Shown here: piece after piece, positions 20,273 to 39,422 of the stretch
Layout: every line of letters begins with the position of its first letter
How positions within the stretch are numbered: position 1 is the stretch's first letter
DNA from: Oscillospiraceae bacterium
GTDB taxonomy: Bacteria; Bacillota; Clostridia; Oscillospirales; Ruminococcaceae
Direction: 5' to 3'
NCBI GenBank assembly: GCA_017545185.1
Contig: JAFWQJ010000050.1
Location: 1-48,980, forward strand
Length of the DNA: 48,980 nt
Made by a program: the position numbers and the translations under genes
The notes under the pieces: generated by a model
Seen by the model: the letters and a program-made list of their open reading frames with translations, nothing else
The model's database searches: none
What the model was told of the DNA's origin: nothing

Positions 20273-20322
20273 CGAAAAAGGGTGCATGAGCTGTACTGTC
20301 AGCATCATGCACCCCATTGTGC
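20273..20322 (-). promoter_or_regulatory. amt leader attenuator 2 (hexaloop plus terminator)
   Basis: Terminator: 10-bp stem GGGTGCATGA / TCATGCACCC (20305-20314 with 20280-20289) then TTTTTCG on the minus strand. A competing hairpin GCAC-AATGGG-GTGC (20309-20322) uses the 5' arm of the terminator. Its six-base loop has A at position 1 and G at position 4. The terminator tip also holds GCTG-ACAGTA-CAGC, again an AnnGnn loop. Confidence 0.7.
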
Positions 20323-20351
20323 GTTCCGTAATTGATTTGCATTGCGCTTTG

Positions 20352-20402
20352 CAAAAACACCAAAAGGCTGCGGAGTTCTGTTTCTCCGCAGCCCCTTTGC
20401 TG
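20352..20402 (-). promoter_or_regulatory. amt leader attenuator 1 (hexaloop plus terminator)
   Basis: Terminator: perfect 10-bp stem GGCTGCGGAG / CTCCGCAGCC (20384-20393 with 20366-20375) then TTTTGGTGTTTTT on the minus strand. The hairpin CAGC-AAAGGG-GCTG (20389-20402) overlaps its 5' arm, so only one can form. It lies about ten bases after the start point. Confidence 0.7.
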
Positions 20403-20412
20403 TTCTGACTGT

Positions 20413-20441
20413 AGTATACCACATTGTGAAAGGTTTGTCAA
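20413..20441 (-). promoter_or_regulatory. Promoter of the amt-PII gene
   Basis: TTGACA (20436-20441), 17 bases, TATACT (20413-20418). The spacer shares 14 of 17 bases with that of the glutamate synthase promoter at 26866-26894, including TTTCACAA (20424-20431). Confidence 0.88.
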
Positions 20442-20510
20442 GCGTTTTTCTGCATTTCGGAATGCAGTATAAAACTTTCTGCTCTGTTCAGACAAATTTT
20501 GTCATTTGGA

Positions 20511-21929
20511 TCATTTATCCTCAAATTCACTGACCAGCGAGGACACCGTCTGCTTTGCGTCGCCGTAGATCATGATCGTGTTGTCGTTCGTAAACAGCGG
20601 GTTTTCCACACCGGAGAAGCCGGCGCCCTTGCCGCGCTTCAGCACAAATACGGTGCGTGCCTCATAAGCATTGATGATCGGCATTCCGTACAGCGGCGAG
20701 GATTCGTCGGTCTGTGCGGAGGGGTTGACGACGTCGTTTGCGCCGATGACGATTGCGACGTCGGTGTTCGGCATCTGCGGATTCATCTCATCCGCGGTCT
20801 TGAGCTGTTCATAGGGCACATTTGCCTCTGCGAGCAGGACGTTCATGTGGCCGGGCATACGGCCGGCAACCGGGTGGATCGCAAAGCTGACCTCTGCGCC
20901 GTTTTCCTCCAGCTTATCGCAGAGCTCCTTGACGGCGTGCTGTGCCTGCGCAACTGCCATGCCGTAGCCGGGGATAAATACAACAGAGGAAGCCGCTTCG
21001 AGAATGAGATAAGCGTCCTCAACGGACATGGACTTCGGCTCCTTTCCGCTGCCTGCCGCACTCTTGGACTTCGATGCACCGAAGCTGCCGAACAGCAGCG
21101 CATAGAGCGTGCGGTTCATTGCCTTGCACATGATGAGCGTCAGGATCAGGCCGGAGGTGCCGACCAGACAGCCGGAAACGACCAGCACGGAGTTATTGAG
21201 CGCGAGACCTGCAAATGCCGCCGCCAGACCCGAAAATGCATTCAGCAGCGAGATAATGACAGGCATATCGCCGCCGCCGATCGTGACGACCATCGTAAAG
21301 CCGAGGATCAGGAAAGCAGCCGTGACGGCGATCATGCCGATGAAGCCGAGCTGCGTATTGCTGCCGCTGAACGCGTACAGGCAGATGCCCGCCAGACCGG
21401 CAAGCGCAAGCACCGCATTGAGTGCATTCTTCGCCGGGATCGTCACGGACTTCTTGAACATTTTGCCGGAGAGCTTGCCCCATGCGACCACGGAGCCCGT
21501 GAATGCGATCGCGCCGATCGCGACGGTCAGACCCATGGTGATGCCCTCAAACGGCTGCGCATCCGCGCCGAGCGTGCGGTAGTTCGCATACTGCGCGAGC
21601 GCGACCAGCAGCGAGGACAGACCGCCGAAGCCGTTGAACAGTGCAACCAGCTGCGGCATACCGGTCATCTCGACCTTTTTCGCCCAGACCGCACCGATGA
21701 TGCTGCCGACGATCACCGCAGCAGCAATCAGCAGATAGCTGTTCAGTCCTGCCGCCATGACCTGCTTTTCAAACAGAACCGTGATGACTGCGATCAGCAT
21801 ACCGACCGCGGAAAGCCCGTTGCCCTTTCTTGCGGTATCCGCCTTGCCGAGCAGCTTGATGCCGCGGATAAACAGCACGGCCGATACCATATAAAGAACG
21901 GTGATGATAACGTCTCTAAAGTCGTTCAC
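20511..21929 (-). CDS. pntB: NAD(P) transhydrogenase beta subunit PntB
   Basis: 472 residues. The N-terminal ~270 residues have about eight to nine membrane helices forming the proton path; the C-terminal ~180 residues form the NADP(H)-binding domain III, with GYGMAVAQAQHAVKEL and HPVAGRMPGHMNVLLAEA. With PntAA and PntAB it couples proton entry to hydride transfer from NADH to NADP+. Its start overlaps the pntAB stop by 4 bases. Confidence 0.95.
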   Translation of the reverse strand: MNDFRDVIITVLYMVSAVLFIRGIKLLGKADTARKGNGLSAVGMLIAVITVLFEKQVMAAGLNSYLLIAAAVIVGSIIGAVWAKKVEMTGMPQLVALFNGFGGLSSLLVALAQYANYRTLGADAQPFEGITMGLTVAIGAIAFTGSVVAWGKLSGKMFKKSVTIPAKNALNAVLALAGLAGICLYAFSGSNTQLGFIGMIAVTAAFLILGFTMVVTIGGGDMPVIISLLNAFSGLAAAFAGLALNNSVLVVSGCLVGTSGLILTLIMCKAMNRTLYALLFGSFGASKSKSAAGSGKEPKSMSVEDAYLILEAASSVVFIPGYGMAVAQAQHAVKELCDKLEENGAEVSFAIHPVAGRMPGHMNVLLAEANVPYEQLKTADEMNPQMPNTDVAIVIGANDVVNPSAQTDESSPLYGMPIINAYEARTVFVLKRGKGAGFSGVENPLFTNDNTIMIYGDAKQTVSSLVSEFEDK

Positions 21930-22231
21930 TTCTGATTGTCCCCCTTCTTCTTGAACATGCCGAGCATTCTGTCAGTGACCAGATAGCCGCCGACCACGTT
22001 GATCGCGGCGAGTACGATCGCAATGATGCCGAACACCATGCCGATCGTGCTGCTCGGTGCCAGAACTGCGACCGCCGTTGCGGACATCGCGCCGACGATC
22101 GTGATGCCGGAGATCGCATTCGTACCGGACATCAGCGGGGTGTGCAGCTGGGACGGAACCTTGGAAATCAGCTCAACGCCGAGAAAGCCGGCGATGACAA
22201 AAACAAAAATCAGCAGCATGATCTCGTGCAT
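21926..22231 (-). CDS. pntAB: NAD(P) transhydrogenase alpha subunit, membrane part
   Basis: 101 residues with three to four membrane helices; LISKVPSQLHTPLMSGTNAISGI is the characteristic signature of the alpha-2 (PntAB) polypeptide. It is the membrane anchor of the alpha half, separate from PntAA as in many bacteria with a three-gene enzyme. It lies one base after pntAA and overlaps pntB. Confidence 0.95.
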   Translation of the reverse strand: MHEIMLLIFVFVIAGFLGVELISKVPSQLHTPLMSGTNAISGITIVGAMSATAVAVLAPSSTIGMVFGIIAIVLAAINVVGGYLVTDRMLGMFKKKGDNQK

Positions 22232-22232
22232 A

Positions 22233-23357
22233 TTATGCCTCCTTAAACCGGTCGTGGATGATCGCGCCGCCCTTTGTCAGCAGACATCCGCGCATGATCT
22301 CATCCTCGAGATTGACAACAAACTCGCCCTGTTCCTTGTTGTAGAAATGCGTGAGGAATGCCGTGAAGTTGCCCGAAAGCATCTTCGAGGCATCGAACGG
22401 GACCTGACGCTCCAGATAATCGCCGGACATGATGATGACGCCGTTGTCCGTGACGACCTCCTCAAACAGCCTGGAGCCCTCGACATTGCCGCCGGTCGAA
22501 ACTGCCATATCGACGATGATCGAGCCCGGCTGCATCCGGTCGATAACATCCTTGCCGATCAGACGCGGTGCCTTGCGGCCGAACACCTTTGCAGTCGTGA
22601 TGACGATATTCGAGCGCTCGCAGACCTTTGCCTGCGCCTCCTGCTGCTTTTTGATCTGCTCAGGGGTCAGCTCCTTTGCATAGCCCTGATCGGTCTGTCC
22701 CATTTCACCGAGGTCGATCTTGACAAAGCTCGCGCCGAGCGACTTGACCTGCTCCTCGACGACCGGGCGGGTATCGAACGCGTCCACTCTCGCGCCGAGA
22801 CGCTTCGCGGTCGCGATCGCCTGCAGACCGGCAACGCCGACACCGATGATAAACACACGCGCCGGATTGATCGTACCGGACGGCGTGACCATCATCGGCA
22901 GGATCTTCGGGAGACGCGCCGCCGCATTGACGACTGCGACATAACCCGCCAGCGAGGTCTGCGAGGACTGAACGTCCATTTTCTGTGCGAGCGTCGTGCG
23001 CGGGATCATCTCCAGCGAGACAGCCTGAATGCCCTTCTCCGCAAACTCTTTCAGCAGCGCCTTTTCATTGAACGGGTCAAGGTAACTCAGGTGCAGCGTA
23101 TCCTTTTTCAGGCCGTCCGCGCTCTGCGGCTTCAGAATGCGCAGGACGATCTCGGAATCATAGCCCTGCTCCTCCTTGTCGATCAGCACCGCGCCGGCTT
23201 TTTCATAGGCAGCATCGGAAACGCCGCTCTTGATGCCCGCACCGCGCACGACCTTGAACGAAAAGCCCATGCCGATGAGCTTTTTGATATCGTCGGGGAT
23301 CAGCGCGACTCTCGTTTCACGCGGATCGGTCTCCCGACAGACGAGTACAGTTTTCAT
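22233..23357 (-). CDS. pntAA: NAD(P) transhydrogenase alpha subunit, NAD-binding part
   Basis: 374 residues, soluble. It begins MKTVLVCRETDPRETRVALIP and carries the Rossmann site VFIIGVGVAGLQAIATAKRLGARVDAFD for NAD(H), domain I of the proton-translocating transhydrogenase. It is related to alanine dehydrogenase, but the partner genes settle the identity. The ATG is preceded by AGGAG. It lies downstream of gdhA on the same strand with a 48-residue reading frame and a hairpin between. No strong separate promoter was found, so it may be read from the gdhA promoter. Confidence 0.95.
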   Translation of the reverse strand: MKTVLVCRETDPRETRVALIPDDIKKLIGMGFSFKVVRGAGIKSGVSDAAYEKAGAVLIDKEEQGYDSEIVLRILKPQSADGLKKDTLHLSYLDPFNEKALLKEFAEKGIQAVSLEMIPRTTLAQKMDVQSSQTSLAGYVAVVNAAARLPKILPMMVTPSGTINPARVFIIGVGVAGLQAIATAKRLGARVDAFDTRPVVEEQVKSLGASFVKIDLGEMGQTDQGYAKELTPEQIKKQQEAQAKVCERSNIVITTAKVFGRKAPRLIGKDVIDRMQPGSIIVDMAVSTGGNVEGSRLFEEVVTDNGVIIMSGDYLERQVPFDASKMLSGNFTAFLTHFYNKEQGEFVVNLEDEIMRGCLLTKGGAIIHDRFKEA

Positions 23358-23396
23358 CTCATTCTCCTCTCAGGCAATATCATACATACAGCAAGA

Positions 23397-23430
23397 GATA
23401 CGCCCCCTGCATCCTTGAAAGGGGCGTATC
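23397..23430 (-). other. Hairpin between the small gene and pntAA
   Basis: Perfect 10-bp stem GATACGCCCC / GGGGCGTATC (23397-23406 with 23421-23430). Neither strand has a T run after it, so it is probably not a full terminator. It might set the level of read-through or protect the message end. Confidence 0.55.
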
Positions 23431-23444
23431 CTTATTGTATTCGG

Positions 23445-23591
23445 TTAATCCCATGTCTGCGTATCGCGGGAGAAATCGGTTTCCGCCGCGACCGGCTCAA
23501 AGGGGTTTGCAGGCGGCGTTTCGATCTGCATGTCCGCCTGCTTCATCGGGAATCCGGTGAACGGGATCCCTCTCAGATCAAATTTCTCCAT
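23445..23591 (-). CDS. 48-residue small protein between gdhA and pntAA
   Basis: A short frame with ATG at 23591, AGGAG 8 bases before it and a TAA stop at 23445. The product is 48 residues, acidic and Pro-rich, without membrane segment or Cys; key parts are MEKFDLRGIPFTGFP, QIETPPANPFEP and a closing DTQTWD. I do not recognise it. It lies 45 bases after gdhA on the same strand and 87 bases before pntAA. The good ribosome site and the position suggest a real gene, perhaps a small partner of GdhA or the transhydrogenase; that is inference. Confidence 0.6.
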   Translation of the reverse strand: MEKFDLRGIPFTGFPMKQADMQIETPPANPFEPVAAETDFSRDTQTWD

Positions 23592-23636
23592 ATAAAATTC
23601 TCCTGTGTTGCGGGCGTAGTGAGCAGCGGTCTGCGC

Positions 23637-24995
<1,359 letters not shown>

Positions 24996-25027
24996 TCACC
25001 GGCAGCAGCCGATAAACTTGCATAATA

Positions 25028-25057
25028 ATCATACCGGATTTTCTGCGGGAAAGTCAA
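25028..25057 (-). promoter_or_regulatory. Promoter of gdhA
   Basis: Minus strand TTGACT (25052-25057), 18 bases, TATGAT (25028-25033). The leader contains only a short CGGCTGCTGCCG and no terminator, unlike the amt, glutamate synthase and glnN leaders. Confidence 0.65.
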
Positions 25058-25121
25058 CGAACATTCCCCTGCAAATATCCGACATCTGCCTGCATTTATC
25101 CGCGCACCGGCATGATTGCCC

Positions 25122-25150
25122 TTGTGGTGCGGCGGCGATTTCCGTATAAT
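25122..25150 (+). promoter_or_regulatory. Promoter of the small receiver-like gene
   Basis: TTGTGG (25122-25127), 17 bases, TATAAT (25145-25150), divergent from gdhA. The -35 is weak. Confidence 0.5.
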
Positions 25151-25189
25151 TGGAGATACGAAAATGAACGATGCAAGGGGTATCTGAAT

Positions 25190-25522
25190 ATGAAAACGAT
25201 CCGTATTTTATCGGAATCCGCGGCGGTCGGAATGCGGCTGCGCGAAATCCTCTATCAGGCGGGATACGCGGATATCCTGCTGTCCGATCTCTCCGCGATG
25301 CCGGCGGAACGGCAGGACAGCCTCCTGATGATCTATGCGAAAACGCATATCGCTTCCGTCATGCAGAATGCCGCAGACAGCGGATGTCCCGTTGTGCTGC
25401 TGCTCAACCCGGACTGCTACGCGATGTATCTCGACCGTGCCAGATATCTGGGGATCACGCTGCTGCTGATGCCTGCCGCGCCCTATATGCTGCTGGACGC
25501 CGTGCAGAATGCTATTTCCTGA
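25190..25522 (+). CDS. Stand-alone degenerate receiver-like protein
   Basis: 110 residues. The alternating strand/helix layout (TIRILSES, then VVLLLN, then GITLLLMPAAPYMLLDAV) resembles a response-regulator receiver, especially the N-terminal part of ANTAR-type regulators. The phosphorylation Asp and the conserved Lys are not present (an Asn and an Ala at roughly these places). There is no output domain. The ATG at 25190 follows AAGGGG; the longer frame from 25112 overlaps the promoter and is rejected. It converges with the AraC-type gene, overlapping 11 bases. A role as a truncated competitor or sensor partner is speculative. Confidence 0.6.
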   Translation: MKTIRILSESAAVGMRLREILYQAGYADILLSDLSAMPAERQDSLLMIYAKTHIASVMQNAADSGCPVVLLLNPDCYAMYLDRARYLGITLLLMPAAPYMLLDAVQNAIS

Positions 25523-26273
25523 CGGCAGACGGCGTATGCCCGGTGTGCTTTTTGAATACGCGCGTGAAATAATCCGGCGTGGAAAAGCCGAGCAGACGGC
25601 TGACCTCCAGTACCTTGAACTGCCCTGTTTCAAGCAGCCGTTTGGCATAGCCGATCTGGAAGCTCTTGTAGAACTCCCCGAAGGTCATGCCGAATTTGCC
25701 CTTGAAGTACCGGCCGAAATAGTCGCGGTTGAAGCCGAAGTAATCCGCTGCCAGCTCGACGGTCGCGGTCTGGTGCTCCATTTTCTGCAGGAATGCGCGC
25801 AGCTTCTCCAGAACCGGCTGCAGCTCCTCTGCCTGCGGCAAAGCATCAAGTGCTCCGTCCGCCGCGGCGCGGTATTCCGCTTCGATCAGCTGCTCGTGGA
25901 TCATGGAGCCCGCCCTGGAAAGCGCCGCGATCAGATCCTCCGGCGGGATCGGCTCGGATAAAAAGTCGATCGCGCCGAGCAGAAAGCACTCGCGCATCCG
26001 CTGGGAATCGTCCTGCTCGCTGATGATGATCGCGGGGAGCCTGCGATCCTTTCCGCCGGTCAGGCGCAGCAGCTTGGCCGCGATGTATTCCGGCGCACGG
26101 TTGATACACAGGAGGATATCATACTGTCTGCTGAGCACGAGATTCACCGCTTCATTGAGGTTTGACGTGCACCGGCCGACCGCAAAATCCGTATCCTCCA
26201 GAACGGAAAAGAGGCTGTTCAGATTCTTTGCGGTTCGTTCGCCGGAATCAGCAACTAAAATCTGCAGCTTCAT
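25512..26273 (-). CDS. AraC-type regulator with a degenerate receiver domain
   Basis: 253 residues. Residues ~1-120 fold like a receiver (LQILVADSGE, ILLCINRAP, AIIISEQDD, AIDFLSEPI), but the phospho-acceptor Asp position holds Cys56 and the conserved Lys position holds Glu107, so phosphorylation control is unlikely. Residues ~155-253 are an AraC/XylS double helix-turn-helix (VELAADYFGFNRDYFGRYFK, then VSRLLGFSTPDYFTRVFKKHTG). The ATG at 26273 is correctly spaced from AAAGGAGG; the ATG at 26291 lies upstream of it. No histidine kinase is adjacent. It neighbours gdhA and the glutamate synthase operon, and its own leader has a terminator with competing hairpin. Targets are unknown; nitrogen genes are a reasonable guess. 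Confidence 0.82.
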   Translation of the reverse strand: MKLQILVADSGERTAKNLNSLFSVLEDTDFAVGRCTSNLNEAVNLVLSRQYDILLCINRAPEYIAAKLLRLTGGKDRRLPAIIISEQDDSQRMRECFLLGAIDFLSEPIPPEDLIAALSRAGSMIHEQLIEAEYRAAADGALDALPQAEELQPVLEKLRAFLQKMEHQTATVELAADYFGFNRDYFGRYFKGKFGMTFGEFYKSFQIGYAKRLLETGQFKVLEVSRLLGFSTPDYFTRVFKKHTGHTPSAVRK

Positions 26274-26300
26274 CTGAAATCCTCCTTTCATACATCCGTC

Positions 26301-26349
26301 AAAAAAACAGGGCTGCTCCGCCTTTTTTCAGCGGAACAGCCCCATTGCT
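26301..26349 (-). promoter_or_regulatory. Leader attenuator of the AraC-type regulator
   Basis: Minus-strand terminator: 12-base arms GGGCTGTTCCGC (26342-26331) and GCGGAGCAGCCC (26321-26310), one mismatch, then TGTTTTTTT, all between promoter and ribosome site. The hairpin AGC-AATGGG-GCT (26338-26349) overlaps the 5' arm. The loop equals that of amt attenuator 2. The hairpin stem is short, three pairs plus two after a mismatch. Confidence 0.62.
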
Positions 26350-26362
26350 TTTCCTTGGCCTC

Positions 26363-26391
26363 ATTCTAGCACAATCGTCCTGCAAAGTCAA
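26363..26391 (-). promoter_or_regulatory. Promoter of the AraC-type regulator
   Basis: Minus strand TTGACT (26386-26391), 17 bases, TAGAAT (26363-26368). Confidence 0.72.
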
Positions 26392-26395
26392 TATT

Positions 26396-26860
26396 TCGCC
26401 GCAGAGTTGTCTGTTTTTTTACGGGATAAGTCGGGATTTATACAAACTCCTGAGATGCCCGCAAAGCCGCGGGGCATATCAAAACCGACGTCCCGAAACA
26501 ATACCGCGCAGCAGAGCAGGCTGCCGCGCGGTATTGCTTTGTAAGGATGATGGCAGAGGCTATGGAGAACCCCGCATCTCCGTTATCATAGCACAGGGCG
26601 CACCGTCATGCAAGAGGCGCCGCGGAAGATGTCGGTTTTCTGATTGGAAAACGCGGGATTTTATATGGTCCCTCTCTTTCTCCGGATCCGGACTGCGTAC
26701 ATGTGACCGCAAATCAAACCGCAGACCGTTCGGCAAACACCGGATCAGCGGACGCGGCGACTGCCTGCTTGTCAAAAAACGACAATTTTCTTTTCACGGC
26801 AGCGGGAAGATTCCGGTCACTGTTCCGAAATCGTACTCCGGATGCGGAAAACTGTCCGCG
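26396..26860. other. Intergenic region with one long hairpin
   Basis: No convincing gene on either strand. It holds a hairpin, CAATACCGCG (26499-26508) pairing with CGCGGTATTG (26527-26536), with an inner CAGC/GCTG pair. CTTTGTAAGGA follows, as after the hairpin at 18401-18424. The rest (26550-26860) has no ribosome site or protein similarity I can see and could be a decayed gene or regulatory DNA. Confidence 0.45.
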
Positions 26861-26865
26861 GGATA

Positions 26866-26894
26866 TTGACAAAACTTTCACAATATGCTATAAT
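26866..26894 (+). promoter_or_regulatory. Promoter of the glutamate synthase operon
   Basis: TTGACA (26866-26871), 17 bases, TATAAT (26889-26894): full consensus. TTTCACAA lies in the spacer (26876-26883), as in the amt promoter. Confidence 0.9.
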
Positions 26895-26908
26895 AGCGGC
26901 AATGATGA

Positions 26909-26970
26909 AATGAACAAAGGCGTTCATTCGGAACACAGGTTACCTGTCTCCGGATGGACGCTTCTTTTTT
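26909..26970 (+). promoter_or_regulatory. Leader attenuator of the glutamate synthase operon
   Basis: Terminator: a 14-pair stem (26918-26931 with 26950-26963, including G-T pairs) followed by CTTTTTT. The competing hairpin AATGAAC-AAAGGC-GTTCATT (26909-26928) has a perfect 7-bp stem and a six-base loop with A1 and G4. It overlaps the terminator's 5' arm almost completely. This is the strongest of the five hexaloop hairpins. Confidence 0.78.
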
Positions 26971-26990
26971 ATCTGCAAGGAGGAATTGAG

Positions 26991-28085
26991 ATGAGCCCAT
27001 TAGAAGGTCAGGTGCGCATTCCGTCCGGCTGTGCGGTCTCCGCGATGATCTCGCGCGACGGCAGACGCATGAACGGCGAAAGCATCATTCAGAGCATGAT
27101 CCCGATGCACGACCGCTCCAACGGTCTGGGCGGCGGCTTCGCGGCATACGGCATCTACCCCGAATACCGCGATTTCTACGCGCTGCACATCTTCTTCAAC
27201 AGCAAAAGTGCACAGGCCGAATGTATGACGCTCCTGAAGGAGTATTTCGAGATCGTGCAGGACGAGCACATCAAGGTGCGCAAAATGCCGCAGATCACCG
27301 ATGAGCCGATCATCCGGCGCGTGTTTGTCTCGCCGATGCAGTCCGTGCTGCGGCATCTGCAGATCGACGACAAGGAGCTGGTCGTGCGCGTGGTCAACCG
27401 CATCAACGCACAGCTGGACGGCAGCTATGTGTTCTCCTGCGGCAAGAATATGGGCGCATTCAAGGCGGTCGGCTTCCCGGAGGACGTCGGCCGGTACTAC
27501 CGCCTCGAGGAATACGAGGCTTACAGCTGGACGGCGCACGGCCGCTATCCGACGAACACCCCCGGCTGGTGGGGCGGCGCGCATCCGTTCTGTATGCTCG
27601 ATTATTCGATCGTGCACAACGGCGAGATCTCATCCTACGACGCGAACCGCCGCTTTATTGAAATGTACGGCTACAAATGTACGCTGCAGACCGATACCGA
27701 GGTCATCACCTATATCGCGGACTATCTGATAAGGCGGCAGGGCCTGACGCTCGACGAGACCGCTGCGGTCATCGCGGCGCCGTTCTGGTCCACGATCGAG
27801 GGCAAGTCCGAGGCGGACAAGGCGAAATACACCTATCTGCGGACGGTATTCCCGAGCCTGCTGGTCACCGGGCCGTTCTCGATCATCCTCGGATTCAACG
27901 GCGGACTCATGGCGCTGAACGACCGCCTGAAGCTGCGTTCCATGGTCGTCGGCGAGCAGGACGATATGGTCTATATCGCCAGTGAGGAAGCCGCGATCCG
28001 CGTCATGGCGCCGGAGATCCAGAATATCTGGTCGCCTGCCGGCGGCGAGCCGGTCATCGTTCGGGTAAAGGAGGGAGCATTTTGA
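26991..28085 (+). CDS. Glutamate synthase amidotransferase domain protein (GltB1 type)
   Basis: 364 residues. Class II glutamine amidotransferase corresponding to domain 1 of the GltB large subunit, encoded alone as in archaea and many anaerobes. The likely nucleophile is Cys14 in RIPSGCAVSAM; since class II enzymes need an N-terminal Cys, removal of a 13-residue leader peptide is implied (inference). Typical segments follow: MHDRSNGLGGGFAAYGIYP, YPTNTPGWWGGAHPF and HNGEISSYDANRRF. It releases ammonia from glutamine for the synthase domain in the next gene. The start was chosen at 26991 because of AAGGAGG; the longer frame crosses promoter and terminator. It overlaps the next gene by 4 bases. 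Confidence 0.9.
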   Translation: MSPLEGQVRIPSGCAVSAMISRDGRRMNGESIIQSMIPMHDRSNGLGGGFAAYGIYPEYRDFYALHIFFNSKSAQAECMTLLKEYFEIVQDEHIKVRKMPQITDEPIIRRVFVSPMQSVLRHLQIDDKELVVRVVNRINAQLDGSYVFSCGKNMGAFKAVGFPEDVGRYYRLEEYEAYSWTAHGRYPTNTPGWWGGAHPFCMLDYSIVHNGEISSYDANRRFIEMYGYKCTLQTDTEVITYIADYLIRRQGLTLDETAAVIAAPFWSTIEGKSEADKAKYTYLRTVFPSLLVTGPFSIILGFNGGLMALNDRLKLRSMVVGEQDDMVYIASEEAAIRVMAPEIQNIWSPAGGEPVIVRVKEGAF

Positions 28086-29578
28086 ATTTCTATCCGGAAT
28101 TTGAGGTCGTCCGCAATGACAGCCGCTGCATCCGCTGCAGAGTCTGCGAACGGCAGTGCGCCAATGAGGTGCATTGGTACGATGAGGACGGCAAGGTCAT
28201 GCTCTCCGATGAATCCAAGTGCGTGAACTGTCAGCGCTGCGTGACGCTGTGTCCGACCAGAGCGCTGAAGATCGTCAAGAGCGACTGCCGTCTGCGCGAG
28301 AACGCGAACTACTCCGATCAGACGATCAAGGAGATCTACCGGCAGGCGGAGACCGGCGGCGTGCTGCTCTCCTCAATGGGCAATCCGAATCCGCTGCCTG
28401 TTTACTGGGACAAGATCCTGATCAATGCCTCGCAGGTGACGAACCCGCCGATCGACCCGCTGCGTGAGCCGATGGAGACCCGCGTGTTCCTCGGCAAGAA
28501 GCCGGATCACATCACCAGAAATGCGGACGGCTCGCTGGATACCAAGCTTGCCCCGCAGCTGACGCTCAGTATGCCGGTCATGTTCTCGGCAATGAGCTAC
28601 GGTTCGATCAGCTACAATGCACACGCCTCCCTTGCAAGAGCGGCATCCGCGCTCGGCATCTACTATAACACCGGTGAGGGCGGTCTGCACGAGGACTTCT
28701 ACAAATACGGCAAGAACACGATCGTTCAGGTCGCGTCCGGACGCTTCGGCGTGCATAAGGATTATCTCGAAGCCGGCGCGGCGATCGAGATCAAAATGGG
28801 ACAGGGCGCAAAGCCCGGCATCGGCGGACATCTGCCCGGAACCAAGGCGGTCGGCGACGTCTCCAAGACGCGCATGATCCCCGAGGGCAGCGACGCGATC
28901 TCCCCTGCCCCGCATCACGATATCTATTCGATCGAGGATCTGCGGCAGCTGGTCTATTCGCTGAAGGAAGCGACCGAATACCGTCTGCCGGTCATCGTCA
29001 AGGTCGCGGCGGTGCACAATATCGCGGCGATCGCGAGCGGCATTGCGCGCTCCGGTGCGGATATCATTGCGATCGACGGCTTCCGCGGCGGTACCGGTGC
29101 GGCTCCGACGAGGATCCGCGACAACGTCGGCATTCCGATCGAGCTGGCACTCGCGGCGGTCGATAAGCGGCTGAGAGATGAGGGCATCCGCAACAATGTT
29201 TCCATTATCTGCGGCGGCTCGGTGCGCTCGGCGGCGGATGTGGTCAAGGCGATCGCGCTCGGCGCGGATGCCTGCTATATCGCGACGGCGGCATGTCTGG
29301 CAATGGGATGTCATCTCTGCCGGAGCTGCCATACCGGCAAGTGCAACTGGGGCATCGCAACGCAGCGGCCCGATCTGGTCAAGCGTCTGAATCCGGATAT
29401 CGGCTCGCAGCGGCTCATCAATTTAATGGACGCATGGCGGCATGAGATCAAGGAGCTGATGGGCGGCATGGGCATCAATTCGATCGAGGCGCTCCGCGGC
29501 AACAGACTGATGCTGCGCGGTGTCGGACTGACCGAAAAAGAGCTTGAGATCCTCGGCATCTCTCATGCGGGCGAATAA
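28082..29578 (+). CDS. Glutamate synthase FMN domain protein with N-terminal ferredoxin (GltB2 type)
   Basis: 498 residues. The N-terminus carries two 4Fe-4S motifs (CIRCRVCERQC and CVNCQRCVTLC). The remainder is the glutamate synthase central/FMN domain: PVMFSAMSYGSISYNAH, GEGGLHEDFYKYGKN, IKMGQGAKPGIGGHLPG and a Cys cluster in MGCHLCRSCHTGKCNWGIA. It condenses 2-oxoglutarate with ammonia from GltB1 to glutamate using electrons through the Fe-S centres. The start is TTG at 28082 with GGAGGGAG before it, overlapping the previous stop. This is the archaeal-type small glutamate synthase rather than the 1500-residue form. Confidence 0.93.
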   Translation: MNFYPEFEVVRNDSRCIRCRVCERQCANEVHWYDEDGKVMLSDESKCVNCQRCVTLCPTRALKIVKSDCRLRENANYSDQTIKEIYRQAETGGVLLSSMGNPNPLPVYWDKILINASQVTNPPIDPLREPMETRVFLGKKPDHITRNADGSLDTKLAPQLTLSMPVMFSAMSYGSISYNAHASLARAASALGIYYNTGEGGLHEDFYKYGKNTIVQVASGRFGVHKDYLEAGAAIEIKMGQGAKPGIGGHLPGTKAVGDVSKTRMIPEGSDAISPAPHHDIYSIEDLRQLVYSLKEATEYRLPVIVKVAAVHNIAAIASGIARSGADIIAIDGFRGGTGAAPTRIRDNVGIPIELALAAVDKRLRDEGIRNNVSIICGGSVRSAADVVKAIALGADACYIATAACLAMGCHLCRSCHTGKCNWGIATQRPDLVKRLNPDIGSQRLINLMDAWRHEIKELMGGMGINSIEALRGNRLMLRGVGLTEKELEILGISHAGE

Positions 29579-29594
29579 AGCGGGGGCGTGAAGT

Positions 29595-30038
29595 ATGAAA
29601 CGAATCTATGTGAAAGAGGAATGGTGCCTCGGGTGCCATTTGTGCGAATACAACTGCGCCTTTGCCAATTCCGGCATGACGGACATGGTCAAGGCACTGC
29701 GCGGCAAAACGATCTATCCGCGCATTCAGGTCGAGACGGACGAGAACGGCGTGACCTATGCGGTCTCCTGCCGCCACTGCAATGACCCGCTCTGCGTCAA
29801 GAGCTGCATCGCCGGTGCGCTCTCCAAAAAGGACGGCGTCATCGAGATCGACCACAGCAAATGCGTCGGATGTCTGACCTGCGTGCTCGTCTGTCCCTAC
29901 GGCGCGGTCGTCGAGGACGGCAGCGGTGTCGCGCAGAAATGTGAGCTGTGCATGAAGAATACCTGCGGTGCGCCGGCCTGTGTCAAGGGCTGTCCGAACG
30001 GCGCGATCGTATACGAGGATCGGGGTGAGGCAGAATGA
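29595..30038 (+). CDS. 4Fe-4S polyferredoxin-type electron transfer protein
   Basis: 147 residues with four Cys groups in the HycB/CooF/DmsB pattern: CLGCHLCEYNC, CRHCNDPLCVKSC, CVGCLTCVLVC and CELCMKNTCGAPACVKGC, enough for up to four 4Fe-4S clusters. There is no signal peptide, so it is cytoplasmic. In this operon it most likely links the neighbouring oxidoreductase with the synthase subunit. It overlaps the next gene by 4 bases. Confidence 0.88.
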   Translation: MKRIYVKEEWCLGCHLCEYNCAFANSGMTDMVKALRGKTIYPRIQVETDENGVTYAVSCRHCNDPLCVKSCIAGALSKKDGVIEIDHSKCVGCLTCVLVCPYGAVVEDGSGVAQKCELCMKNTCGAPACVKGCPNGAIVYEDRGEAE

Positions 30039-31273
30039 AGAAATACGTTATCATCGGCAACGGTGTGGCTGCGGCGGGATGTATCGAAGGCATCCGCTCC
30101 GCGGATGCGGAGGGCAGCATCACGGTCATTTCCGCGGAAAGCTATCCGGTCTACTGCCGCCCGCTGATCTCCTATTATCTCGAAAACAAGACCGATCTGC
30201 AGCGCATGAACTACCGCGGCGAATCGTTCTATGCGGATCACAATGCGGCGGTGCTGTACGGCAAAAACGCCGCTGAGATCCGCACGGATGCAAAGCAGAT
30301 CATTCTGGACGACGGAAGCAGCATTGCATACGATGCGCTCTGCTGCTGCACGGGTTCCTCGCCGTTTGTCCCGCCGATGCAGGGACTGGATACCGTTGAG
30401 AAGAAGTTCAGCTTCATGACGATCGACGATACGCTTGCACTGGAAAAAGCGGTCACGCCGGAGAGCCGCGTGCTCATCATCGGTGCGGGTCTGATCGGAC
30501 TGAAATGCGCAGAGGGTCTGCATGATCGTGTCAGAAGCATCACGGTCTGCGACCTTGCGCCGCGTGTGCTGTCCTCGATCCTCGATGACAGATGCGCCGC
30601 GATGATGCAGAAGCATCTTGAGGATCACGGCATTTCGTTCATTCTCGGGACGAGTGCAAAGGAATTTCAGGGCGGTCATGCCGTCATGCAGAACGGCACG
30701 GAGGTCGATTTTGACGTTCTGGTGCTGGCGGTCGGCGTGCGCGCCAATACCGCGCTTGTGAAGAATGCAGGCGGCAATGTCGGCCGCGGCATTGCGGTCG
30801 ATGATGCGTGCAGAACCTCGCTGCCGGATATCTATGCCGCGGGCGACTGCACCGAATATCACGATATTTCGTCCGATTCGGTCAAGGTCATGGCACTGAT
30901 GCCGAATGCCTATATGCAGGGACGCACCGCCGGCGTCAATATGGCGGGCGGCGAAGCTGCGTTTGACAATGCGATCCCGATGAACTCGATCGGCTTTTTC
31001 GGGTTCCACTGCCATACTGCCGGCTCCCAGCCGGAGGGCTGCGAAATGTACGAGGAAGCGGACGAAAACCATATCAAGCGGCTGTTCGTCAAGGACGACA
31101 GACTGACCGGCTTCATGATCCTCGGGACCATGCACCGGACAGGTATTTATACGGCACTGATCCGCAATCAGACGCCGCTGTCGTCGGTCGATTTTGACCG
31201 GCTCAGGATCGAGCCGCAGCTCGCTGCCATGGGCAGCGCATACCGCGATAAAGTATTGAAAGGAGCGGTCTGA
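30035..31273 (+). CDS. NAD(P)/FAD-dependent oxidoreductase of the glutamate synthase operon
   Basis: 412 residues, pyridine nucleotide-disulfide oxidoreductase superfamily. The FAD site is YVIIGNGVAAAGCIEGI at the N-terminus and the NAD(P) site is RVLIIGAGLIGLKCAEGL in the middle. A third motif, DIYAAGDCTEY, closes the FAD site. No redox-active CxxxxC pair is seen, so it is a one-chain electron donor like nitrite reductase or rubredoxin reductases. It probably passes electrons from NAD(P)H to the 4Fe-4S protein upstream. It is contiguous with the gltB3-type gene. Confidence 0.88.
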   Translation: MKKYVIIGNGVAAAGCIEGIRSADAEGSITVISAESYPVYCRPLISYYLENKTDLQRMNYRGESFYADHNAAVLYGKNAAEIRTDAKQIILDDGSSIAYDALCCCTGSSPFVPPMQGLDTVEKKFSFMTIDDTLALEKAVTPESRVLIIGAGLIGLKCAEGLHDRVRSITVCDLAPRVLSSILDDRCAAMMQKHLEDHGISFILGTSAKEFQGGHAVMQNGTEVDFDVLVLAVGVRANTALVKNAGGNVGRGIAVDDACRTSLPDIYAAGDCTEYHDISSDSVKVMALMPNAYMQGRTAGVNMAGGEAAFDNAIPMNSIGFFGFHCHTAGSQPEGCEMYEEADENHIKRLFVKDDRLTGFMILGTMHRTGIYTALIRNQTPLSSVDFDRLRIEPQLAAMGSAYRDKVLKGAV

Positions 31274-31996
31274 ATGGAACTGAATGTATCGGCAATGGGT
31301 TTTTCCGAGGTCAACGAGCAGATGCGGCAGACCGCGGACAGCGAGATCACGCTGACGGGCTGCATCGGGCAGCGATTCCTTGCAGCCGGAACCAGCGGAA
31401 AATATGTGAAGATCAGCGGCATTGCAGGCAATGCGCTCGGCGCATATCTGAACGGTACGGTGATCGAGACCTTCGGCAATGCGCAGGATGCGGTCGGCGA
31501 CACGATGAACGAGGGCGAGATCATCGTCCACGGCAACATCGGTGACGCGGCAGGCTATGCGATGCGCGGCGGCAAGATCTTCGTGCAGGGCAATGCCGGC
31601 TACCGCGCAGGCATCCACATGAAGGCCTATCAGGACAAGGTGCCGGTCATGGTGATCGGCGGCAGGACAGGCAGCTTCCTCGGGGAATATCAGGCGGGCG
31701 GCATCATCATCGTGCTGGGGCTTTCCGGCGGCGAGCGTCCGATCGTCAGCAATTTCCCCTGCACCGGTATGCACGGCGGCAGGCTGTTCCTGCGCTCGGA
31801 CTGCGAGGGCATCCACTTCCCGCATCAGGTACATCACCGCATCGCGTCCGCGGAGGAGCTTGAGGAGATCCGCAGCTATGTTGAGGAATACTGCAGACAT
31901 TTCGGCGGCGACCCCGACGAGATCCTGAATGCGGAATTTACACTTGTCACGCCGGACAGCGGCAATCCGTACAAGCAAATGTACGTTGCAAACTGA
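31274..31996 (+). CDS. Glutamate synthase GXGXG domain protein (GltB3 type)
   Basis: 240 residues. The beta-helix with repeating G-x-x-x-G turns (GNAQDAVGDTMNEGEIIVHG, GNIGDAAGYAMRGGKIFVQG, GNAGYRAGIHM) is the C-terminal structural domain of GltB, here as its own gene. It starts directly after the upstream stop (GGAG site inside that gene). It completes the split glutamate synthase: amidotransferase, FMN domain, two electron carriers and GXGXG domain. Confidence 0.93.
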   Translation: MELNVSAMGFSEVNEQMRQTADSEITLTGCIGQRFLAAGTSGKYVKISGIAGNALGAYLNGTVIETFGNAQDAVGDTMNEGEIIVHGNIGDAAGYAMRGGKIFVQGNAGYRAGIHMKAYQDKVPVMVIGGRTGSFLGEYQAGGIIIVLGLSGGERPIVSNFPCTGMHGGRLFLRSDCEGIHFPHQVHHRIASAEELEEIRSYVEEYCRHFGGDPDEILNAEFTLVTPDSGNPYKQMYVAN

Positions 31997-32118
31997 GCGG
32001 GCAGTACCCGCAGCCGTTTTGCTTCGCCTTTATTTTGCGTAATGAACGGCACAAAGCATGATTCTTTCAGTTGGGCGCGCTGACCGCGCGCATGATGATC
32101 GCAGTTTTGGAGGGTTGA

Positions 32119-33738
<1,620 letters not shown>

Positions 33739-33755
33739 CAGGGTTCCGTTCACTG

Positions 33756-33773
33756 CCGGGGTCATGACCCCGG
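33756..33773. other. Perfect 18-bp palindrome upstream of purF
   Basis: CCGGGGTCATGACCCCGG is fully self-complementary, 31 bases before the purF ATG. It could be an operator for a dimeric regulator or form an RNA hairpin in a pyrG-purF message. It lacks a T run. Confidence 0.6.
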
Positions 33774-33803
33774 ACCCCGTTACGAAATCATGAGGTTTAT
33801 AAT

Positions 33804-35222
33804 ATGGGATATTTGCATGAAGAATGCGGCGTGTTCGGCATCCTGTCGCCGCAGCCGGAGAACCTTGCACACCTGACCTACTGCGGACTGTTTGCGCTGC
33901 AGCACCGCGGGCAGGAGGGCGCCGGCATCACGGTCAATGAGGACGGCGTGTTCACGACGCACAAGGATCTCGGGCTGGTCGATCATGTGTTCCCGCCGCA
34001 GATCCTGTCCGGCTTCCCGCACGGCACCATGGCGGTCGGTCATACACGCTACGGCACGACCGGCGGCAATCAGCGGCGGAACTGTCAGCCCATGGAGGTC
34101 AATCACCAGAAGGGCAAAATGGCACTTGTCCACAACGGCAATCTCAGCAATGCCGGCAGACTGCGCAGCGTTTTAGAACAGCGCGGCGCGATCTTCCACA
34201 CGACGAGCGACACCGAGATCATCGCGTATCTTATCACGCAGGCGCGGCTGCAGACCGATTCGATCGAGGACGCCGTCCGCCTTGCTGTGCCGCAGCTGGA
34301 GGGTGCCTTTTCGCTGATCGTCATGTCCGCGCAGAAAATGATCGCTGTGCGTGACCCGCACGGATTCCGGCCGCTGTGCATCGGCAAACGGGCAGACGGC
34401 GGCTTTGTGCTCGCTTCGGAAAGCTGCGCGCTGAATGCGGTCGGTGCAGCATTCCTGCGGGACGCCGAACCCGGCGAAATGATCGTGCTGACGCCGGACG
34501 GCAGGATGCAGTCCGACCGCAGATACACAGGGACCGCACCGAAGCGCACCTGCATTTTTGAATATATTTATTTTGCCCGCCCTGATTCGGTTCTGGACGG
34601 CGTTTCCGTTCATGCGGCCAGAAAAAAAGCCGGCGCGCTGCTCGCGGAGGCACACCCCGCGAATGCGGACGTCGTCATCGGCGTGCCGGATTCGGGACTG
34701 GATGCCGCGCTCGGATTTGCGGAAGCATCCGGCATTCCCTACGGCATCGGGCTCATCAAGAACAAGTACATCGGCCGCACATTCATCGCGCCGTCGCAGT
34801 CCGAACGCGACAGCGGCGTACAGCTCAAGCTGAGCCCGGTCTGTGATACGGTCGCAGGCAGTCGCATCGTGCTGATCGACGACTCGATCGTCCGCGGCAC
34901 GACCAGCCGCCGCATCGTTTCACTGCTGCGGAAGGCCGGCGCAAAGGAGATCCACTTCCGCGTATCCGCCCCGCCGTTCCTGCATCCCTGCTATTACGGG
35001 ACCGATATTGATTCGGAGGAAAACCTGATCGCGAATCACCACACCGCGGATGAGATCGCGAAGATCATCGGCGCGGATTCCCTCGGATTCCTCCCCGTTT
35101 CATCGCTGCCGCAGCTCGCAAAAACAGACGGCATCTGCACGGCCTGCTTTACCGGCGACTATCCGACCGCTGTCGAGGACGATGAGGCGAAGGACCGCTT
35201 TGAACGGAAGATTCACGGTTGA
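33804..35222 (+). CDS. purF: Amidophosphoribosyltransferase PurF
   Basis: 472 residues. A 7-residue leader precedes the class II nucleophile Cys8 in EECGVFGI, as in B. subtilis PurF, which is matured by leader removal. The glutaminase half has TRYGTTGGNQRRNCQP; the PRTase half has the PRPP loop IVLIDDSIVRGTTSRRIV. Cys residues near the C-terminus (GICTACFTGDYP) correspond to ligands of the 4Fe-4S cluster of the Bacillus-type enzyme. First step of purine synthesis. Its stop codon lies inside the -35 box of the glnA promoter. Confidence 0.96.
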   Translation: MGYLHEECGVFGILSPQPENLAHLTYCGLFALQHRGQEGAGITVNEDGVFTTHKDLGLVDHVFPPQILSGFPHGTMAVGHTRYGTTGGNQRRNCQPMEVNHQKGKMALVHNGNLSNAGRLRSVLEQRGAIFHTTSDTEIIAYLITQARLQTDSIEDAVRLAVPQLEGAFSLIVMSAQKMIAVRDPHGFRPLCIGKRADGGFVLASESCALNAVGAAFLRDAEPGEMIVLTPDGRMQSDRRYTGTAPKRTCIFEYIYFARPDSVLDGVSVHAARKKAGALLAEAHPANADVVIGVPDSGLDAALGFAEASGIPYGIGLIKNKYIGRTFIAPSQSERDSGVQLKLSPVCDTVAGSRIVLIDDSIVRGTTSRRIVSLLRKAGAKEIHFRVSAPPFLHPCYYGTDIDSEENLIANHHTADEIAKIIGADSLGFLPVSSLPQLAKTDGICTACFTGDYPTAVEDDEAKDRFERKIHG

Positions 35223-35248
35223 CAAAAGCCGTCCCGATGTGGTATGAT
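35219..35248 (+). promoter_or_regulatory. Promoter of glnA
   Basis: TTGACA (35219-35224) overlapping the purF TGA, 18 bases, TATGAT (35243-35248). The leader is only ~20 bases with no room for an attenuator. Confidence 0.75.
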
Positions 35249-35275
35249 AAGAAAAAACGATTGGATGTGAACGAA

Positions 35276-36502
35276 ATGATGAATGTTTCACAGCGCGAGG
35301 CCGCAGAGCTGATCGAAAGCAGTGATATCAAATTTGTGCGCCTCGCTTTCTGCGATGTGTTCGGCGTACAGAAAAATATTTCGGTGCAGGCCGCGGAGAT
35401 CGCGCGCGCCTTTGAACAGGGCATCGCGTTTGATGCGTCGTCGGTCGCGGGCTTCCGCGATCCGTCGCACTCCGATCTGTTCCTGTTCCCCGATCCCGCA
35501 ACGATGGCGCTGCTGCCGTGGCGCCCCTCCAGAGGCGGCGTCGCACGCTTTTTCTGCGAGATCAGAAATCCGGACGGCACGCCGTTTTCTGCGGACTGCC
35601 GCAGATTTCTTGCCGATACCGAGCAGCTTTTAGCAGAGCATGATCTCCGCTGCGATATCGGTGCAGAGTGCGAATTCTACCTCTTTAAGCTTGACGAAAA
35701 CGGCAATCCGACCGATACGCCGATCGACTGCGCTGGCTATTTCGATATCGCACCGGCGGACGGCGGCGAGAATGTCCGCAGAGAGATCTGTCAGACGCTG
35801 GAAAGCATGGGCATCCAGCCGGAGCGCTCGCACCATGAGCAGGGCCCCGGTCAGAATGAAATTGATTTTCGCTACAGCAATGCATTGAGCGCCGCGGACA
35901 ATGTCGTGACGTTCAAACAGGTCGTCAGTACGGTCGCCGCACGGAACGGGCTCTGGGCATCGTTCGCGCCGAAGCCGATCAAGGGCGAGGCCGGAAACGG
36001 CTTCCACATCAACTGCTCCATTTCCCATTCGGATATCCGCGCAGGTGCTGACGAATCGCTGTTCCGGTCGTTTATGGCGGGCGTGCTCGCCCATACGCCG
36101 GAAATGACCGCAGTTCTCAATCCGCTCGAAGAATCCTATGTGCGGCTCGGCAGGGACAAGGCGCCGAACCGCGTCTCGTGGTCGCCCTCGAACCGCTCGC
36201 AGCTGATCCGTATTCCGGCAGCAGATGCCTCACATCAGCGCATGGAGCTGCGCTCGCCGGATGCGTCCGCAAATCCGTATCTCGCATTTGCACTCGTGAT
36301 GCGCGCTGGGCTTGACGGCATTCTCCGCGGCATGACCCCGCCGCCCCCCTGTAACCAGAATCTGCTGGATGTGCCTGCGGAAACCGCAAATCAGTACCTG
36401 GCTCTGCCCGCCGACCTCAATGCTGCCAAGCGCCTTGCGGCAGAGAGCGCATTCATGCAGGAATCGCTCCCTGCACATCTGCTTGTTGCCTTTACGGAGT
36501 GA
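35276..36502 (+). CDS. glnA: Glutamine synthetase, type I
   Basis: 408 residues from ATG 35276, slightly short for GSI (~440). Visible motifs: N-terminal VRLAFCDVFGVQKNI; the metal and glutamate site IGAECEFYLF; QGPGQNEIDFRYSNAL; GNGFHINCSIS; and the Arg-containing NRVSWSPSNRSQLIRIP with the closing MELRSPDASANPYLA. It joins ammonium to glutamate using ATP. A longer frame starting at the -35 box is rejected since it precedes the transcription start. The ribosome site is weak (GGATGTGAACGAA). The ANTAR gene follows after 6 bases and shares the message. A second, unrelated glutamine synthetase (type III) lies 850 bases downstream. Confidence 0.92.
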   Translation: MMNVSQREAAELIESSDIKFVRLAFCDVFGVQKNISVQAAEIARAFEQGIAFDASSVAGFRDPSHSDLFLFPDPATMALLPWRPSRGGVARFFCEIRNPDGTPFSADCRRFLADTEQLLAEHDLRCDIGAECEFYLFKLDENGNPTDTPIDCAGYFDIAPADGGENVRREICQTLESMGIQPERSHHEQGPGQNEIDFRYSNALSAADNVVTFKQVVSTVAARNGLWASFAPKPIKGEAGNGFHINCSISHSDIRAGADESLFRSFMAGVLAHTPEMTAVLNPLEESYVRLGRDKAPNRVSWSPSNRSQLIRIPAADASHQRMELRSPDASANPYLAFALVMRAGLDGILRGMTPPPPCNQNLLDVPAETANQYLALPADLNAAKRLAAESAFMQESLPAHLLVAFTE

Positions 36503-36508
36503 CGGAAA

Positions 36509-37099
36509 ATGCTGACGCGCTTTGAGCAGAAAGAGGTTTTCGTCATTTCCTCGAACGAGAATTTTCACCGTTACGTGCGGGAAAATCTGCCCGACGGCGA
36601 CTTTACCGTTTCCGGCGGCGCGGATTCCTGCACGGAAGCACGCCAAAAAATGATGGGCAATTCCTGCGCGGTCGTTCTCATCAATATCCCGCTGACAGAC
36701 GAATGCGGCACGGAGCTTGCAAGCGATCTGGCGGAAAATACGCCGTCTTCGGTCGTGGCTGTCGTCAAGAACGAGCAGGAACCGGAGTTCCGGCAGTCTC
36801 TGGAGCCGGCCGGCATTTTTGTGCTCGGCAGGCCGTTTCCGCATACGACGTTTCATCAGGTGCTCTATGACGCCGCTTCTGCATACGCGAGAATGCAGAT
36901 CATGTCGCAGGAGAATCAGCGTCTGCAGATCAAGCTGATCGACCTGCGGATCGTCAACCGCGCGAAGTATGCGCTGATCCAGTATCTCGGCATGAGCGAG
37001 GAGCAGGCGCATAAATATATCGAGCAGCAGGCGATGAATCAGCGCATCTCCAAGCGGAAGGCTGCGGAAAATATCCTAAAAACATATGAGAATCATTGA
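36509..37099 (+). CDS. ANTAR-domain RNA-binding regulator with degenerate receiver
   Basis: 196 residues. Residues ~8-120 resemble a receiver, but the phospho-acceptor place holds Asn59 (VVLINIPLT) and the conserved Lys is Arg108 (VLGRPF). Residues ~122-146 form a coiled-coil helix. Residues ~140-192 are an ANTAR domain (IVNRAKYALIQYLGMSEEQA, then AMNQRISKRKAAENIL). ANTAR proteins bind RNA hairpins with six-base loops having A1 and G4 and prevent a nearby terminator from forming (AmiR, NasR, EutV). Five such hairpins overlap leader terminators in this window, and the closest, for glnN, begins ~90 bases after this gene. It is translated with glnA. Most likely it senses nitrogen state through a partner protein rather than phosphorylation. 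Confidence 0.9.
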   Translation: MLTRFEQKEVFVISSNENFHRYVRENLPDGDFTVSGGADSCTEARQKMMGNSCAVVLINIPLTDECGTELASDLAENTPSSVVAVVKNEQEPEFRQSLEPAGIFVLGRPFPHTTFHQVLYDAASAYARMQIMSQENQRLQIKLIDLRIVNRAKYALIQYLGMSEEQAHKYIEQQAMNQRISKRKAAENILKTYENH

Positions 37100-37146
37100 G
37101 GATTCATGGGCAAAGCGTCAAACCTTGTGAAATTCCTGTCAAAGTC

Positions 37147-37175
37147 TTGACAAGCGAAGAAAAATGTGCTATCAT
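37147..37175 (+). promoter_or_regulatory. Promoter of glnN
   Basis: TTGACA (37147-37152), 17 bases, TATCAT (37170-37175). The box TTGTGAAA, the reverse complement of the TTTCACAA in the amt and glutamate synthase promoters, lies at 37125-37132. Confidence 0.85.
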
Positions 37176-37186
37176 GTAACACAGAA

Positions 37187-37240
37187 AACAGCAACGGTGC
37201 TGCTTCGGGAAGATTCCCGAAATGCCGTTGCTGTTTTTTT
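37187..37240 (+). promoter_or_regulatory. Leader attenuator of glnN
   Basis: Terminator: perfect 11-bp stem AACAGCAACGG / CCGTTGCTGTT (37187-37197 with 37225-37235) then T to 37240, with an inner TTCGGG-AAGATT-CCCGAA hairpin. The competing hairpin CAGC-AACGGT-GCTG (37189-37202) has loop A1/G4. It starts within ~10 bases of the transcription start and lies ~115 bases before the start codon. Confidence 0.75.

Positions 37241-37352: not shown

Positions 37353-39422
<2,070 letters not shown>

Follow-up and report, generated by a model that had tools for sequence, protein, structure and literature searches.

Single-hexaloop hairpins over the terminators of nitrogen-gene leaders, and an ANTAR protein as their predicted antiterminator, in Ruminococcaceae

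A 48,980-nucleotide (nt) stretch of DNA from an Oscillospiraceae bacterium (GTDB family Ruminococcaceae; GenBank assembly GCA_017545185.1, contig JAFWQJ010000050.1, positions 1 to 48,980), here called the window, carries a cluster of nitrogen genes whose leaders contain a small hairpin with a six-base loop. We analyzed this hairpin as the candidate target of an ANTAR protein encoded in the same cluster. Its relatives mark the source as a Ruminococcus-like rumen bacterium. Four units of the cluster are predicted to be regulated: an ammonium transporter-PII (amt-PII) fusion gene (18467..20248, minus strand; Pfam PF00909 and PF00543), a gene for a regulator with receiver-like and HTH_18 (AraC-type) domains (25512..26291, minus strand; Pfam), a glutamate synthase operon of five open reading frames (ORFs; 26991..31996, plus strand; Pfam run on three of the five) and glnN, encoding a type III glutamine synthetase (37353..39422, plus strand; PF12437). 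The ANTAR gene (36509..37099, plus strand), which encodes a receiver-like domain without the phospho-accepting Asp and an ANTAR domain (Pfam, alignment), follows a glnA-type glutamine synthetase ORF (35219..36502, plus strand; Pfam). The cluster also includes a glutamate dehydrogenase gene (gdhA), named from its own sequence; no such hairpin-terminator was seen before this gene.

An earlier note on this DNA had reported five intrinsic terminators, each overlapped by an AANGGN hairpin and each standing behind a strong promoter. All five terminators and hairpins were found, with the loops AAAGGG, AATGGG, AATGGG, AAAGGC and AACGGT in the leaders to which they had been assigned, and a promoter was present before four of them. 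In each leader a hairpin of the form C[AANGGN]G (A at loop positions 1 and 2, G at 4 and 5) overlaps the 5' arm of the terminator with its loop, its 3' arm or both. The four promoters match 10-12 of 12 consensus positions and have the hairpin directly behind them, 8-14 nt from the -10 box.

In the amt-PII leader (minus strand) the promoter TTGACA-17-TATACT (20413..20441), similar in the leaders of the genus, is followed 10 nt past the -10 box by site 1, CAGC[AAAGGG]GCTG (20389..20402, loop 20398-20393), and by terminator 1 (20362..20397), whose U-tract is short (TTTT then GGTG). Site 2, GCAC[AATGGG]GTGC (20309..20322, loop 20318-20313), has no promoter of its own; it lies downstream of terminator 1 as a tandem second gate, with terminator 2 and its U-tract at 20275..20314. 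The leader of the AraC-type regulator gene (minus strand) has the promoter TTGACT-17-TAGAAT (26363..26391), the hairpin GGAA-AAGC[AATGGG]GCTG-TTCC (26333..26354, loop 26346-26341) and a terminator (26306..26346) followed by a U-tract to about 26301; the hairpin has 3 base pairs (bp) beside the loop and 4 bp past a 1x1 mismatch, and a bulged G in most relatives. Before the glutamate synthase operon (plus strand) stand TTGACA-17-TATAAT (26866..26894), AATGAAC[AAAGGC]GTTCATT (26909..26928, loop 26916-26921) and a terminator with a U-tract (26920..26970). The glnN leader (plus strand) consists of TTGACA-17-TATCAT (37147..37175), CAGC[AACGGT]GCTG (37189..37202, loop 37193-37198), in which loop positions 1 and 6 are able to pair, and a terminator with a U-tract (37189..37240), in whose internal loop the hairpin 3' arm GCTG is unpaired. 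Each leader folded alone gave a terminator-like structure of -28.7 to -36.7 kcal/mol, whereas the small hairpin alone reached -4.7 to -7.6 kcal/mol, indicating that the hairpin needs help to win.

Hairpin-terminators with A at loop position 1 and G at position 4 (A1/G4) numbered five in the window, compared with a mean of 0.37 and a maximum of 3 in 60 dinucleotide shuffles; the promoter-linked ones numbered four, compared with none in the same shuffles. Hairpin-terminators with any loop were also in excess (14, against a mean of 4.5 and a maximum of 10), which means that shuffles understate the background and that comparison between loop classes is the better control. All four promoter-linked hairpin-terminators of the window are A1/G4. 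In the window and 55 loci of relatives together, A1/G4 was the only enriched loop class, with 65 cases, none of the 15 others exceeding 15; when a promoter was required it had 67 cases, eight of them judged spurious, against at most 8 in any other class.

The element is conserved in a set of 30 genomes of the genus, the window's own included. Among the 29 amt loci fetched, the leader start could not be made out in seven; site 1 was kept in 22 of the 22 readable leaders, as was site 2. The AraC site was kept at 22 of 23 loci, with a distant paralogue as the exception. The earlier note had held that relatives keeping the terminator and losing the loop would speak against it; AANGGN was retained in 66 of 67 genus leaders, the window counted. 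The glnN leader was nearly unchanged in 15 close relatives. When leaders were picked by orthology of the gene, not by the hairpin, the element was found before glnN in 24/31, glutamate synthase in 21/30 and amt in 8/10 cases, against 0/17 for purF, 0/19 for carA, 1/25 for pyrG, 1/36 for the ANTAR gene and 3/41 for glnA as controls. These counts are lower bounds, since the strict scan misses weak U-tracts, such as that of amt site 1, and leaders at a greater distance upstream within an operon (glnN in L038 and L048). The hairpin arms covary (CAGC/GCTG, GAAC/GTTC, AGGC/GTCT and others), with changes on both sides in five of six pairs; 88.4% of cells were paired, compared with 25-47% when the arms were slid, and the covariation score exceeded all 500 shuffles. 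In other species the regulon is predicted to include asnA, a circularly permuted ATP-grasp gene, purA, gdhA, an aconitase-family gene and purF (L061, L081, L082, L116, L080, L120, L130 and L238).

A separate palindrome, AAAGCGCTTTG/CAAAGCGCTTT, was seen between the two amt terminators in 12 of 21 amt loci of relatives (L180-L197, L205-L207; whole loci scanned, position judged by eye); the window copy (20353-20338, minus strand) is degenerate. We take it to resemble a catabolite-control (cre) operator, which might link carbon with nitrogen control.

A covariance model of promoter and hairpin, with the terminator left out, was built from 53 leaders and searched in 148 sampled genomes of the family, in 109 of which ANTAR was found. 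The training leaders were drawn from the 67 promoter-linked A1/G4 cases after removal of the eight judged spurious by eye, five near-duplicates from close relatives and one site before glnA (L055). At E<=1e-4 matches were obtained in 88 of the 109 ANTAR-positive genomes and in 6 of the 39 ANTAR-negative ones; without the 24 genomes known to be training sources the numbers were 65 of 85 against 6 of 39. A covariance-model search through related genomes had been put forward as a check in the earlier note; in this one, the element tracks the presence of ANTAR. Among 30 loci from the top of the list, nine of them training sequences, all had the overlapping terminator and A1/G4 hairpin, and 25 stood directly before glnN, glutamate synthase, amt, gdhA, asnA or a circularly permuted ATP-grasp gene (asnA and one ATP-grasp named by Pfam); in four more (L059, L060, L069, L083) glnN lay 1.1-1.4 kilobases (kb) further on, the remaining one being L077. 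Of 13 ANTAR-positive loci lower in the list, nine had the hairpin-terminator at the match, one (L135) about 95 nt away and three none. We judged glnN leaders the most telling: 11 of 15 in ANTAR-positive genomes carried the element compared with 2 of 28 in ANTAR-negative ones (Fisher p 1.4e-5, indicative only). By eye, two of the four ANTAR-positive misses (L028, L046) have weak forms and the other two have the element before an upstream gene. Three of the six ANTAR-negative matches (G038, G004, G145) had no such hairpin-terminator at the match. The central gene of glutamate synthase was itself matched at E<=1e-50 in only 3 of the 39 ANTAR-negative genomes, one match being partial; the operon may be retained or lost along with ANTAR, as judged from the ANTAR-negative set, the one searched in this way.

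Of 118 genomes outside the family, five were matched by the model at E<=1e-4, and each of these is ANTAR-positive. Seven loci were fetched from these: L237/L242 (one place), L238 and L240 show a hairpin-terminator near glutamate synthase or purF-like genes, and the scan showed none in L239, L241 and L243. In the window's own genome the model gave 149 matches at E<=10, headed by the four promoter-linked sites of the window, all training members (glutamate synthase site, E 5e-11). The next 26 (L090-L115) had no A1/G4 hairpin-terminator at the match, and a rescan of these whole loci turned up A1/G4 hairpins in four of them, five in all and incidental, without an AANGGN loop; these 30 matches were the ones inspected, and promoter-less sites such as amt site 2 would escape this search.

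The earlier note's assignment of 36509-37099 as an ANTAR gene was borne out (PF03861, 48.2 bits against a cut-off of 27.3, C-terminal residues 138-190). This is the sole ANTAR domain found by Pfam in the genome (assembly 95% complete), so that one protein for four units, as also proposed there, is the economical reading; binding and antitermination by it are predicted. The protein aligns with Rv1626, AmiR and EutV. At the phospho-acceptor position it has Asn59 (its numbering derived from the alignment), and a residue other than Asp occurs there in 36 of 41 ANTAR proteins of the family, while Asp occurs in 19 of 29 others. The RNA contacts K143 and K147 of EutV correspond to R147 and R151, the basic character being kept, and the position of EutV Tyr164 is occupied by His168; His is found there in 38 of 41 family proteins, and Phe or Tyr in 24 of 29 others. 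This His is absent from three family proteins (L018, L040, L043), each of which has the Asp; their loci, which extend to 20 kb at most, showed no nitrogen-gene leader. L022 and L052 have the Asp yet keep the His. In 40 of 52 loci the ANTAR gene directly follows glnA, an arrangement that hints at a role of glutamine synthetase as sensor partner. Some family proteins (G006:C2, G029:C19, G075:C16, G088:C64 and G140:C6) have two ANTAR matches side by side in a single reading frame.

These results make it very probable that the ANTAR protein of 36509-37099 is a nitrogen-responsive antiterminator that acts on single hexaloops in the leaders of amt-PII, the AraC-type regulator, glutamate synthase and glnN, with no recruitment hairpin (P1). 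The leader anatomy, its conservation and its tie to ANTAR are features of the sequences themselves; binding by the protein and the direction of the nitrogen response we infer. Transcription is predicted, from the promoter consensus, to start within a few nt before the AANGGN hairpin. With ANTAR unbound, the hairpin would yield to the stronger overlapping terminator and transcription would stop; when nitrogen is short, ANTAR would bind the single hexaloop as the RNA emerges, hold the hairpin and block the terminator, and in the amt-PII leader two such gates would act in series. The signal would reach the protein by contact with glutamine synthetase or PII, not by phosphorylation.

An alternative reading is that these are canonical dual-hexaloop sites whose first hairpin was overlooked because of another loop size, bulges or a position further upstream. 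EutV needs two hexaloops in vivo with a fixed linker, although isolated hexaloops are still bound (PMC3369931, PMC8934654). The distance from the -10 box to the hairpin had a median of 10 nt in family loci (n=29), 11 in close relatives and the window (n=25) and 10 in model matches (n=41), compared with 35 nt in other families of the phylum (n=11 leaders, 20 ANTAR loci). With about 10 nt the predicted RNA would start a few nt before the hairpin, so that most transcripts could hold no P1 ahead of it, provided that the starts are as predicted. A strict search for P1 (A1/G4 hexaloop, at least 4 contiguous pairs, linker of at most 30 nt; the 3-bp AraC site of the window falls below this cut) found none in 47 family loci and none in 26 loci of close relatives and the window, together 0/73. 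As a positive control, it found P1 in 7 of 26 leaders of other families (p 0.0004 against 0/47). Some dual leaders of other families have bulged P1 stems that escape the strict scan (by eye, for example L141), and with mismatches allowed P1 was found in 10/26 leaders of other families, 4/47 family loci, 1/26 close relatives and window, and 6/44 model matches. The means for other loop classes in these sets were 3.3, 4.3, 3.6 and 3.2, so that A1/G4 was above the mean in other families, and at or below it, that is at background, in both family sets. The amt leader does have two tandem hairpins, but they lie about 80 nt apart, each with its own terminator. Overlooked dual sites are thus improbable, and the leaders of the family have no P1 detectable in their sequences.

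The earlier note's suggestion of a single-hairpin variant therefore finds support in the distance between promoter and hairpin and in the P1 search, which had a positive control. Its further idea, that a loop tighter than A1/G4 marks such a variant, did not hold and was rejected. Among the 53 training leaders, in which A1 and G4 were required, A2 was present in 53, G5 in 49 and the closing C-G in 53, and leaders of other families, dual ones included, have nearly the same loop (A2 24/26, G5 19/26, closing C 23/26), indicating that the tight loop is general. Single sites may also exist outside the family, where some leaders have no detectable P1.

The hexaloop could also be a by-product of the terminator, with an A-rich stretch and a GG that pairs with CCUUU, and no protein involved, the leaders being constitutive attenuators or having another readout. 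A-tracts before terminator stems are common, and the loop bases do pair with the terminator 3' arm (glnN, amt site 1) or with the U-tract (amt site 2). Loops other than A1/G4 were not enriched in the same scan, though, and the glnN arm GCTG, unpaired in the terminator, was kept in 15/15 close relatives. Folding of the AraC and glutamate synthase leaders left A1 and A2 without a partner, yet position 2, which was not selected for, is A in 22/22 AraC leaders and in every training leader. Most glnN leaders of ANTAR-negative genomes, moreover, lack the element. We regard this explanation as very doubtful. Attenuation of leaders by other systems exists, but control by a T-box, a riboswitch or another RNA-binding antiterminator is scarcely credible here, as nothing in the window scored up to an Rfam gathering threshold (the interval 20200-37400 gave two weak matches at E<=5, both far short of it and away from the leaders) and the loop fits the published A1/G4 rule for ANTAR and co-occurs with ANTAR.

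Several observations weigh against control by ANTAR through single hexaloops. No match at E<=1e-4 was found in 20 of the 85 ANTAR-positive genomes outside training. Three of the six matched ANTAR-negative genomes look real, with sites before purA (G030), a ketopantoate reductase gene (G034, assembly 70% complete) and gdhA (G057, 83% complete), as does L215, one of two glnN leaders that carry the element in ANTAR-negative genomes. The family genomes are related and not independent, which makes the p-values optimistic. Two of the five covariation measures, the counts of changing pairs and of pair types, were reached in 57 and 47 of 500 shuffles, and the set was chosen for hairpins of at least 3-4 bp, so that pairing is partly built in. 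The pairing of loop bases in the terminator fold (glnN, amt site 1 and, via the U-tract, amt site 2) is an independent constraint on them. In 4 of 29 family leaders the gap from the -10 box to the hairpin is larger, 21-55 nt, and the looser P1 count in model matches is above the mean and equals the maximum of the other loop classes. Binding, readthrough and start sites are predictions, and a one-loop site contradicts the best-studied case, since EutV needs both hexaloops.

Next to the AraC-type regulator gene, tail to tail with it, lies a 109-residue ORF (25193-25522, plus strand) with no Pfam match at E<=0.001, kept in 20 of 23 genus loci, the window counted. Judged by eye, it resembles a receiver-like domain standing alone; a sequence link to the ANTAR receiver was considered and rejected, as no significant match was found. 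The receiver of the AraC-type regulator also seems, by eye, to lack the phospho-acceptor (...LLCINRAP...), so that the cluster may hold several non-phosphorylated receiver-like proteins.

The leaders resemble the eut leaders of Enterococcus faecalis controlled by EutV in the A1/G4 hexaloop over a terminator, the ANTAR protein and the antitermination logic (PMC3369931, PMC8934654). They differ in that EutV leaders have two hexaloops at a set spacing, whereas here there is one, at what is predicted to be the 5' terminus of the RNA. EutV becomes active on phosphorylation, whereas the window protein has Asn at the acceptor position, and Tyr164 of EutV stacks on G4 where the window protein has His168 (PMC8934654). 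According to the 2022 structure paper, the EutV dimer grips one hexaloop at a time; the paper raised the question of why there must be two and left open the role of sites with a single hexaloop (PMC8934654). ANTAR nitrogen regulons were predicted by Ramesh 2012 in Desulfotomaculum and others with a dual-hairpin model (PMC3369931); they likewise place ammonium transporter, PII, and glutamate and glutamine synthesis under ANTAR terminator leaders, but that model would not describe the leaders found here, and search models with two hairpins are expected to miss single-hairpin targets. AmiR of Pseudomonas is similar in its pseudo-receiver and lack of phosphorylation (PMC3369936), and in the alignment its ANTAR helix also has His at the position of EutV Tyr164; it differs in an amiE leader with P1 and P2-like structures, in its partner AmiC and in its amide operon target (PMC3369936). 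NitR of solventogenic clostridia is likewise an antiterminator tied to ammonia assimilation; it differs in being described as also relying on an antisense RNA (PMC4676874).

Dual-hairpin ANTAR control of nitrogen genes is thus already known. What appears to be new, as far as sequences can tell, is a family-wide form with one hexaloop at the 5' end and a receiver mostly without phospho-acceptor; among the open-access literature matches listed, with subscription papers mostly outside them, no earlier report of a one-hexaloop nitrogen regulon was found. It is fairly likely that this form is a distinct ANTAR class, using one 5'-terminal hexaloop without recruitment hairpin or phosphorylation, with His where EutV has the Tyr that stacks on G4, and that it serves as the main nitrogen switch of the family. 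It would offer an example from nature, conserved across the family, where a single hexaloop appears to suffice, in leaders short enough to suit in vitro transcription. If true, the recruitment-then-transfer model made for EutV would not be general. For this group of rumen bacteria a likely nitrogen switch can now be named, whose predicted regulon reaches gdhA, asnA, purA, purF and others in relatives.

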